From: Nitrospirales bacterium
GTDB lineage: Bacteria; Nitrospirota; Nitrospiria; Nitrospirales; UBA8639
Reading direction: 5' to 3'
Length of the DNA: 32,442 nucleotides
NCBI GenBank assembly: GCA_021604105.1
Contig: BQIW01000052.1
Location: forward strand, 1-32,442
Shown here: positions 12,373 through 15,194 of the stretch, in pieces
Layout of the letters: each line of letters begins with the position of its first letter
How positions within the stretch are numbered: the stretch's first letter is position 1
Translations under genes and position numbers: made by a program
The notes under the pieces: generated by a model
The model's input: only the letters and a program-made list of their open reading frames with translations
Databases searched by the model: none
What the model was told of the DNA's origin: nothing

Positions 12373-12461
12373 GGAGAGGTGCGAGAGTGGCCGATTCGGA
12401 CGGTCTCGAAAACCGTTGTCCTCACAAGGGACCGTGGGTTCAAATCCCACCCTCTCCGCCA
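12373..12461 (+). tRNA. tRNA-Ser(CGA)
   Basis: Acceptor arms GGAGAGG (12373-12379) and CCTCTCC (12451-12457) pair fully, with discriminator G and an encoded CCA at 12459-12461. The anticodon stem ACGGT/ACCGT encloses CTCGAAA, giving anticodon CGA (reads UCG). A long variable arm (GTCC/GGGAC type) is the class II hallmark of tRNA-Ser. The T arm is GTGGG-TTCAAAT-CCCAC. Near copies of its 3' half occur again at 12654-12676 and 14668-14690, and an exact inverted copy of 17 nt lies at 12528-12544. Confidence 0.97.
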
Positions 12462-12527
12462 GCCATTGCCGCAGCATAAGAACAACAAGCGGAAAGCGGA
12501 GCAACCAAATCAGGAACTCACATCAAA

Positions 12528-12742
12528 GAGGGTGGGATTTGAACAGGGGTTTTGAAGGGGATATTTCCCCTTCAAGGGGTGACCGGAGCCATGCGAAGGC
12601 ACGAGGGGGGCTGGCCCCTTCGTGGGAGTGCGGGGCTAGCAGACCCGCACGACTTCAAATTCCCACCCTCTCCGTCAAATCAGTGTACACCAAAATCAGC
12701 TCCTCCCCGCATTTCGGAAATACTCCTAACACGTCCGCGGGG
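12528..12742 (+). repeat. Structured tRNA-Ser-tail element, copy A (candidate RNA or integration-site element)
   Basis: This non-coding stretch has a dense set of stem-loops. H1 is TTGAAGGGG/CCCCTTCAA (12552-12560 with 12567-12575). H2 is CACGAGGGG with CCCC-T-TCGTG (12600-12624). H3 is GTGCGGG/CCCGCAC (12628-12634 with 12644-12650). H4 is CCCCGC/GCGGGG (12705-12710 with 12737-12742). GAGGGTGGGATTTGAA (12528-12543) can pair with TTCAAATTCCCACCCTC (12654-12670), closing H1-H3 into one multibranched unit. A further stem ATGATCG/CGATCAT follows at 12760-12786. The segment TTCAAATTCCCACCCTCTCC copies the tRNA-Ser 3' half. Copy B at 14566-14754 preserves H1-, H3- and H4-like stems. Confidence 0.7.
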
Positions 12743-12984
12743 TAGGCTCCCTTTGCGCCATGATCGAGTGGCTCTCCCGCGATCATCCCCTTCTGATTGT
12801 TCTCTTTTTCATGCAAATCTCTCTGGCGAGATTTTGGCGGTCCCACTGCGCATTTCTGTGGGGGACCGAGAGAGCCCGTGGCCTGATTGCCCTTAGGCAA
12901 CCTTATTCTCTTGAGAAAACGGTGTGGTTGGTAGTTGGGTATCGGCTTTGTTGTGCAGCGCAGTCAGCCAAACCCCCATTAAAT

Positions 12985-14067
12985 TCACAATACACGCGTC
13001 AGCAATACCCCCAAAGAAATGAAATGAAACTCGTAGCGCTCAGGGTCGGCCGCGAATCGCTTCGTCATTCGAGCGTACAACTCGTCGATGAGCTCTGGCC
13101 GATCCGGGGTGTTTGGCAAGCCAGACGTCACAACGGGCTCCGAGAACGCGCGGATGAACCCGGCGTAGCTTTCGGCCCAGGAGCGGGGGTCCCCACTGCG
13201 GGCGAATTCCTCGTTGAAGGGGACTCGGCAGTCGCGGGCCTCGGCCTTATCGACACTAAACGCCGGCGGCTCCCCGTTTTCTCCGGTCGGCGGCAACAAC
13301 TCTGAAAGCGATCGATAGTATACCGGGAAAATGAAGTTCTCGTAGACGTCGCGCGTCAGGCGACCCTCCTCCACCATGTCCAGCATCGCATCGCTTAGAC
13401 CGTCAATAATTCCATTTGCGGTGTCGTGTTCGTCGTTGCGCCCGAAGACTTGAACGAGTAGCTTTCCGCCGGACTTCAGCTCGGCGGCACGAGCCCGATA
13501 GAAACTCAGGATGTCTTCATGGGCTTGTTTAGTGAAAGCCGCTCTTTCTTCCGGGCTCACAGATACGCCCTCGCGAAACGCACGCTGCGCGGGTGGGGAG
13601 GGGGAGATGAACCGAGGCAGGCGCGTCTGAGGTAAGCCGGACATCCAGCCCACCGCATTGAAGGTCGTCGCGATGTCGATGCTCGAAGCCGGTGCGACCC
13701 GCTCGAAAAGCGACCCGCCGACGGCAGCCGGATAAATACCGGCTATGCGACTCGAAGATGTCGCATCGGGAAAAAGGTTGGCGAAGAGTTGATTGAAGTC
13801 GTTCGTCGGCAGATCATCGAAGAAAGTCCAGATGTCGGCTTGAGAGCGATCACGCAGCGCCTCGATGATCGCCCCTACCGCATGAATCGCGTTGGCCCCT
13901 TCCGACGAACCAAGGTCAAGCAGCGCGATCGGCGTGCCGTTCGTCGGTAAGGGCAAATCTGCCATGGCGTCTACAATCCAGGGAAGGAACTCGTCCATCG
14001 CCGCGCGCTGCCCCGATGAGTGCGCATCGTAGAAGCCTCTCCCTCTCATACCAGTTGTGCTCGCCAT
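12985..14067 (-). CDS. SABATH-family S-adenosylmethionine-dependent carboxyl methyltransferase
   Basis: SABATH enzymes, best known from plants (salicylate, benzoate, jasmonate, indole-acetate methyltransferases), methylate carboxyl groups of small acids to give methyl esters. The 360-residue product has the family order of motifs. GRGFYDAHSSGQ near the N-terminus corresponds to the SYxxNSxxQ element. ALLDLGSSEGANA (48-60) is the cofactor-binding site, and TFFDDLPTNDFNQLF (81-95) matches the LNDLPxNDFNxLF signature. SLFERVAPASSIDI and TFNAVGWMSGLP (119-146) match the SFYxRLFPxxSLHF...WLS region. ATG 14067 follows AGGAG by 8 nt, whereas an upstream ATG has none. The gene is visibly G+C-richer than its surroundings and is flanked by the structured element copies, which suggests lateral acquisition. 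Substrate unknown. Confidence 0.85.
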   Translation of the reverse strand: MASTTGMRGRGFYDAHSSGQRAAMDEFLPWIVDAMADLPLPTNGTPIALLDLGSSEGANAIHAVGAIIEALRDRSQADIWTFFDDLPTNDFNQLFANLFPDATSSSRIAGIYPAAVGGSLFERVAPASSIDIATTFNAVGWMSGLPQTRLPRFISPSPPAQRAFREGVSVSPEERAAFTKQAHEDILSFYRARAAELKSGGKLLVQVFGRNDEHDTANGIIDGLSDAMLDMVEEGRLTRDVYENFIFPVYYRSLSELLPPTGENGEPPAFSVDKAEARDCRVPFNEEFARSGDPRSWAESYAGFIRAFSEPVVTSGLPNTPDRPELIDELYARMTKRFAADPERYEFHFISLGVLLTRVL

Positions 14068-14111
14068 GCTCAGGTCTCCTGCCCATTGCGGGACATTATT
14101 CATTTAACTTG

Positions 14112-14123
14112 ATGTGATCACAT
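14112..14123. promoter_or_regulatory. Palindrome upstream of the SABATH gene
   Basis: ATGTGATCACAT is a perfect 12-bp palindrome, 44 nt upstream of the SABATH start. It could be an operator. It holds TGTGA and TCACA half-sites, but without the 6-nt spacer of a CRP site. The rest of 14124-14540 shows no gene that I can support. Confidence 0.35.
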
Positions 14124-14565
14124 TGAGACAAGTTTTTTTCTCACCCCTTATGCACCCACCGATTCCTTTCAGACCTGAAAGGCCTGGCTGCACAGTAGGC
14201 GATAATTGACCGCCTGCATTGGAATCCCTCGGAGGTGCCAAGTATCACCCGGACGGTCTTGTCGTTTCTTGAGCTTGCCTGCATAGACAGGGCAAAACTT
14301 CTAACATCATGGGGGAAGGGTTTTATAGCTGGCGATAATGAATCGTTTAACTAGAAGCTCCTTCACTTCCCAAAACCTCAAAAAGAATCGACGGCACAGC
14401 CACATTACATGACGTATAATTTCGGTCGGCGATAGCCAGGCGTTTCGAATTTCATGACCCCGAGTGTGCCAAACATGCGTTTAATTGACAAATCTGCAAG
14501 AACCACTGAGTTTGCACACTACATCCAGACCGTTTCGGGAAGGGGGTTCGCAAAGAAAAGGTTTT

Positions 14566-14754
14566 GGTCATGGGAAAATTTTCCCCTCATGGGGTGACCG
14601 CAACTGGCAATGGCACGATGGGCATGGGCCCCTAGTGGGAGTGCGGGATGAGCCAGGCCTGCACGAATTCAAATTCCCACGCTCTCCGTCAACCAATCTA
14701 AGCAGAGCACCCCTCTCCCTGCATTGCTGGCATACTCCTAACAAGTCCGCAGGG
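14566..14754 (+). repeat. Structured tRNA-Ser-tail element, copy B
   Basis: This is the diverged second copy, about 2.0 kb to the right of copy A. It shares GGGGTGACCG, GGCACGA, GTGGGAGTGCGGG, TTCAAATTCCCAC, CTCTCCGTCAA, ATACTCCTAACA and GGGTAGGCT in the same order. H1 is now GGGAAAATTTTCCC (14572-14585) within GGTCA/TGACC. H3 is GTGCGGG/CCTGCAC (14641-14647 with 14658-14664, one G-T wobble). H4 is CCCTGC/GCAGGG (14717-14722 with 14749-14754), a compensatory C-G to T-A change relative to copy A. The long closing stem of copy A is not evident here. Confidence 0.7.
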
Positions 14755-15194
14755 TAGGCTTCCTTAGGGCCACGGTTGGCGCTCTCTCCAACGATTCTAG
14801 TCTTTAGATGACATAACATTTGACACGTTGGCCCAACTGGAGGCCATGCTGAAAACCATGGGGAAAAATTTGTGGACGAGGAGGATCGGAAACAGTCTGG
14901 TTCCAAAACAAAATCTGCACTCCCATACTTTCTGGTTTGGGGCTTGCTAAGAAAACATCTAGGGTCGCGCAGCAATTTTCGGCCATCCTAGATAATGTGC
15001 GGGAGGAGATGGCCATCCTATACAAAGACATCCAGCCGTAGACGGAACAGCATCGGGCGAAGGCGTCCGAAACTTTTCTTTCATGACCTATTTGATGAAT
15101 TGCCTTTAATTGCCAATCTTGCCAGGTTATCCCCTAATCCAAATGACAGGCCATTTTGGGAACATCTTTTTCCCTTTTACAGGAGGACGACCGC
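14755..15194. other. Gap without a supported gene
   Basis: Just after copy B, GTTGG/CCAAC forms a hairpin near 14782-14800. Further on, a start-less plus-strand frame ends at a TAG near 15042 with text such as QQFSAILDNVREEMAILYKDIQP, which looks like a coding remnant of unknown family. Nothing else here can be supported. Confidence 0.3.

Follow-up and report, generated by a model that had tools for sequence, protein, structure and literature searches.

Directly behind the intact tRNA-Ser(CGA) gene in a 32,442-nt stretch of Nitrospirales DNA (hereafter the window), we have found a 216-bp non-coding insertion, copy A (12462-12677), which is one member of a family of structured elements in Nitrospirota. 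Members share a common architecture, leave the tRNA intact, carry arms matching the adjacent tRNA of any isotype and have a fold that is under selection; orthologous loci occur filled and empty, and at least one transfer has crossed families. We consider it probable that copy A is a non-coding, non-autonomous mobile element, which inserts directly behind the 3' CCA of tRNA genes by means of an enzyme provided in trans and whose RNA is transcribed together with the tRNA.

The tRNA-Ser(CGA) gene (12373-12461; this and the following parts lie on the forward strand), found by ARAGORN and with the Rfam tRNA model, is both the target gene and the source of the arms. According to ARAGORN, it ends 66 nt before the start of copy A as delimited by the initial annotation (12528-12742). 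The left end of the insertion is a leader of 65 nt (12462-12526), assigned from leader lengths and the empty-site comparison; in most copies behind Ser and Leu tRNAs the leader measures about 60 nt. It is followed by the antisense arm (12527-12544), the 5' side of the closing stem P1, whose 18 nt (AGAGGGTGGGATTTGAAC) exactly match the reverse complement of the tRNA-Ser(CGA) 3' end, covering T-loop, T-stem and acceptor. The core has four hairpins: P2 (GAAGGGG/CCCCTTC, 12551-12575), in which six of seven pairs are doubly changed among 23 copies; P3 (CCGGAGC/GCGAAGG, 12583-12599), which is missing from many copies of family f3; P4 (CACGAGGGGGG/CCCCTTCGTG, 12600-12624), in which one pair alternates between A-U, G-C and C-G; and P5 (GTGCGGG/CCCGCAC, 12628-12650), which covaries in the alignments. 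The right end is the sense copy of the tRNA 3' end (12654-12677), the 3' side of P1, reading TTCAAAT(T)CCCACCCTCTCCGTCA with one extra T behind the T-loop. The closing stem of copy A is thus a pair of antisense and sense tRNA arms. Between A and B the window contains a carboxyl methyltransferase gene on the opposite strand (12985-14103; PF03492, 4.5e-42), an orthologue of which adjoins the element in genome G019 and, split in two pieces, in G011.

The initial annotation had paired copy A with a second, diverged copy B (14566-14754). The two are indeed homologous (75% identity over 213 nt, E=3.8e-30), have the conserved block order in common and encode no convincing protein, and the closing stem of A is, as had been noted, not present in B, in which the tail of a GIY-YIG coding sequence takes the place of the left arm. 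Where copy A has its antisense arm, this left edge of B (14529-14567, TVSGRGFAKKRFW) carries a remnant of the C-terminal end of a GIY-YIG nuclease (SGRGFAKKRFW). Decayed core hairpins (14568-14667) follow, then the 3' end of tRNA-Ser copied in sense orientation (14668-14691, TTCAAATTCCCACGCTCTCCGTCA) and a second copy of a block that we call module 2 (14692-14812), all on the forward strand. Single-sequence folding supports the structure for copy A (z -2.7) and does not do so for decayed copy B (z +1.4). Copy A is a complete solo element and copy B what decay has left of a GIY-YIG/core hybrid, and the two are not a functional pair.

Module 2 behind copy A (12678-12800, forward strand) contains the H4 helix and tail hairpin on which much of the earlier case for structure had been built. 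Since it lies directly behind tRNA-Ser in relatives (2-5 nt behind tRNA-Ser(CGA) or tRNA-Ser(TGA)), it is the original tRNA flank which copy A entered and not a part of the element, and no structure is supported in it. The proposed compensatory change in H4 (C-G to T-A) does not generalise, because over 13 copies of this right-hand block H4 pairs no better than in shuffles (65.8% vs 65.3%). The tail hairpin (ATGATCG/CGATCAT) gave 69.2% vs 69.8% over 13 copies, and RNAalifold predicted no fold in the block as collected from 13 places, including 12678-12800 and 14692-14812. Module 2 itself is a conserved 120-nt block, found behind tRNA-Ser(CGA) or tRNA-Ser(TGA) in several relatives and also behind copied tRNA tails (both places in the window, L204, L205, L206, L207, L208, L028 and L210); it carries the inverted repeat CCTAAC/GTTAGG and is perhaps a recombination site.

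A BLAST search of relatives' genomes with copy A found copies in 31 of 60, nearly always on the same strand and just behind tRNA-Ser or tRNA-Leu. A covariance model was built from 23 copies and run on 296 Nitrospirota genomes, 66 of which had matches; a core-only model (R2), in which the P2 helix was mis-set, was weaker than R1. Among 89 distinct model matches examined, 69 lie at most 150 nt behind a tRNA, and the host tRNAs are of six isotypes, mostly Ser, but also Leu, Gly, Thr, Ala and Arg. The unit runs from the leader through the antisense T-arm/acceptor arm and the hairpin core to the sense copy, whose last bases are CCA. In the copies behind tRNAs, those at Gly, Thr, Ala and Arg tRNAs included, both arms copy the T-arm and 3' end of the tRNA next to them, one in antisense and one in sense orientation. 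When 78 elements were compared with 42 distinct tRNA ends, the sense copy scored 22.2 on its own tRNA, 18.4 on different ends of that isotype and 8.9 on other isotypes. The tRNA's own end was unbeaten for the sense copy in 65 of the 78, and the same count was obtained for the antisense arm; strict tracking within one isotype is therefore only moderate, which counts against the explanation that we prefer.

The family is, as far as tested, confined to Nitrospirota: no match was obtained in 48 genomes reached via other matches, a set that had no positive control and included one Nitrospirales genome, and 198 genomes of the phylum of locus L161 gave two matches, both without tRNA context. More distant variants, in which the P3 hairpin is longer and the motif CCTAGGGG..CCCCTGGG occurs, were seen at L228, L229, L230 and L031; that at L230 has no tRNA nearby, and these variants may lead to a wider family.

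The initial annotation had proposed selection on structure, and this holds for 12527-12677, where covariation is strong, and fails for the H4 and tail hairpins. When 23 copies were aligned without regard to structure, the paired cells amounted to 89.7% vs 83.7% in shuffled alignments, double changes are found in 22 of 47 pairs, and the covariation score is 0.239 vs 0.135 for shuffled and 0.05-0.09 for slid alignments. For 93 distinct copies aligned with the covariance model, an alignment biased towards that model, the values are 92.3% vs 73.2% shuffled, 42 of 47 pairs with double changes and a covariation score of 0.416 vs 0.145. The fold is under strong selection. An ordinary intergenic repeat or pseudo-tRNA, free of structural constraint and with a compensatory change that arose by chance, would agree with the failure of H4 and the tail hairpin on more copies, but this reading is refuted, and its probability is negligible, in view of the strong covariation of core and closing stem and the systematic placement behind tRNAs.

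Which nucleic acid folds is suggested by the non-canonical pairs. An excess of G.T over A.C is expected for a selected RNA fold and unexpected for DNA without strand preference, and on the tRNA-sense strand of the core helices the G.T to A.C cells number 21:8 and 70:23. This points to RNA read in the tRNA direction, although the evidence, coming from related sequences, is no more than suggestive; the folding strand would then be an RNA co-transcribed with the tRNA. The other possibility is a folded single-stranded DNA recombination site, comparable to the attC site, in which the arms mimic a double-stranded tRNA end with one extrahelical base and a tyrosine recombinase acts. Integron attC sites are folded palindromes with one or more extrahelical bases, and the present element is likewise a folded palindromic site with such a base; its arms are palindromic copies of the target, and an extra base stands at a fixed stem position in 36 of 49 Ser copies, where it is the only gap, on the 3' side of the T-loop (arm positions 23-25). 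The combination of an intact tRNA with a distal 3' fragment, as in integrative elements, also agrees with a DNA site. We nevertheless regard it as improbable: the G.T excess in the core helices points to RNA, the extra base is mostly missing from Leu copies, and the complete genome G030 encodes no tyrosine recombinases beyond two of about 330 aa, which are presumably XerC/D. In ten copies behind Gly, Thr, Arg and Ala tRNAs the extra base occupies arm position 15. A further difference from attC is that the target is a tRNA end, and neither an integron integrase nor a cassette was seen. For the mobile element proposed here, the extra base would keep the sense copy from being a second perfect T-arm and perhaps protects it from re-cleavage.

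Mobility is indicated by two orthologous loci with precise empty sites, by a patchy distribution and by a cross-family transfer. The tadA-tRNA-Ser(CGA) locus is empty in G008, G011, G019 and G007, in which synteny of tadA was confirmed and the tRNA is joined directly to the flank that follows the element in the window; the same junction is present in G006, where tadA is outside the available stretch. This direct junction in relatives means that the window holds a precise insertion of 216 bp. The tRNA-Ser(GGA)-ffs locus is empty in G174 and G184, filled in G054 and G038, and occupied by a decayed element in G169, and there the sequence after the element agrees with the empty flank from the very start. 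A long target-site duplication was rejected as a general rule: although the leader recurs behind the element in 9 of 82 copies, it shows no homology to the empty flank at the ffs and window loci, and the leader repeats are therefore better read as partial tandem units. Elements behind tRNA-Ser(CGA) in genus g15 have 88-90% identity to those of family f1 but no more than 72% to the remaining copies of their family, and no other f3 copy exceeds 75% identity to f1. This indicates at least one transfer between families, which could partly reflect assembly contamination, though three genomes agree. Three near-identical tandem units behind tRNA-Gly(GCC) in G030 (L219:468-999) represent a recent amplification.

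An origin of these patterns in a host function is unlikely, although some copies are old and seem to have been kept vertically, which a host function would explain too. The element would in that case be a cis-acting or small RNA made from tRNA-transcript tails, serving the host by controlling tRNA maturation or level, with an antisense arm that competes for the tRNA's T-arm, and would be inherited vertically and often lost. The strong structural selection, the excess of G.U on the sense strand and the long-kept copies behind tRNA-Ser(GGA) in family f3 are all in accordance with this, and so is the finding that same-tRNA copies are closest across genomes. Evidence against a needed host role comes from empty loci within one genus, from tandem copies, from the between-family transfer and from the majority of genomes of the phylum, which are without the element. 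As regards mobile spread, the nearest relative of a core lies behind the same tRNA of a different genome in 28 cases vs 3, a ratio which fits homing-like spread or inheritance and not jumping within a genome. The unit may spread in a homing-like manner, chiefly to cognate tRNAs in other genomes; it would enter through recombination inside the shared block at the tRNA 3' end, and the enzyme that breaks or recombines the DNA would presumably be supplied in trans.

The leading candidate for this enzyme in the genus is the GIY-YIG nuclease fused to some copies. Its gene is not present in A, is a remnant in B and is intact in a few hybrids; fuller GIY-YIG/core hybrids were found at L023, L032 and L042 (Pfam PF01541, 8.8e-16). 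Elements are also found in 11 of 12 relatives bearing GIY-YIG, a count confounded by genus membership. Related GIY-YIG genes are located directly behind tRNA-Ser in other phyla and start at a junction of CCGCCA with GCCTTCGC; the tRNAs at this junction are Ser in 24 of 25 cases, a number that is biased because the search pattern contains a Ser-type tail. A GIY-YIG unit that starts at the tRNA-Ser CCA with this junction and continues to GGCTTCGGCTGGC was observed at L023:1087-1500, L040, L041, L043, L105, L117, L150 and L164, and this separate unit, present in several bacterial phyla, appears to be a nuclease element in its own right, widespread and targeting tRNA-Ser. At L282:522-1207 (G277:C38), a GIY-YIG gene of another kind follows tRNA-Ser(CGA) and a structured element, which places a second nuclease type beside the family. 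Apart from L282 and a type-1 copy at L284, the other free-standing GIY-YIG genes found by the PF01541 search are unlinked to tRNA. A short sequence ending in CACACCGCCA or CACACAGCCA was seen before displaced tRNA-tail flanks with no tRNA nearby (L046, L010, L037 and L215), and is probably the far end of an element integrated in tRNA-Ser.

A GIY-YIG nuclease as the sole obligatory mobiliser is unsupported, as the complete genome G030 has tandem copies and neither a free-standing GIY-YIG gene nor a reverse transcriptase. Since carriers are without reverse transcriptase (PF00078 was not found in G000, G011, G019, G030, G242, G329, G237, G286 or G110), a mechanism based on that enzyme was also rejected.

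The family is apparently undescribed. Rfam 15, HEARO and group I introns included, has no match to the core at gathering score and, up to E 1, none of proper length and place; phage and plasmid collections have no match to the family, and the exact core motif is absent from IMG/VR. A published description was not found in a search that left preprints and most subscription papers outside. The initial suggestion of a new RNA or an integration-site element therefore survives in both halves, the first in a covarying family absent from Rfam and the second in the tRNA 3'-end insertion with precise empty sites, for reasons that differ from the original ones.

Several known systems share single features with the family. 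Integrative elements targeting tRNA genes (integrative islands, tycheposons and phage satellites) also insert at the tRNA 3' end, with an intact tRNA on one side and a 3'-end copy on the other, but the present element has 216 bp, no integrase or other gene, an antisense arm, a hairpin core and usually an extra base in the sense copy; because its own integrase is missing, we have not classed it with them. A role in breaking tRNA-containing sequence and in amplification via microhomology has been ascribed to SegB of T-even phages, a free-standing GIY-YIG homing nuclease that acts near tRNA genes (PMC13096335). Here too a GIY-YIG gene is beside or fused to the element, whereas most copies lack a nuclease and the elements are chromosomal and structured. 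REP/REPIN repeats, scattered palindromes mobilised by a RAYT transposase, and MITE-type repeats are likewise short, non-coding, palindromic and non-autonomous, but the present elements are bound to tRNA 3' ends and not scattered, take their arms from the neighbouring tRNA and have no fixed terminal repeat. In Methanopyrus kandleri, a fixed short palindrome, CGTTA(N)9TAACG, occurs just behind many tRNA genes (PMC5217627), a similar location with an unrelated sequence.

We tentatively propose, as a possibility short of an even chance, that the family is a new class of selfish structured RNA, encoding no protein, which has a conserved core and arms copying the resident tRNA in both orientations and homes to the 3' ends of cognate tRNAs in other genomes. 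If this is true, it would be a tiny gene-free parasite for which tRNA genes serve as safe landing sites and whose ends are fitted to the resident tRNA in at least six isotypes. Structured RNA, homing and tRNA-gene integration would then be linked in a natural system in which copying the target writes the target specificity. Even if the element has a host function, it would be a new, strongly covarying RNA family behind tRNA genes, and tRNA maturation in Nitrospirota would need to be re-examined.
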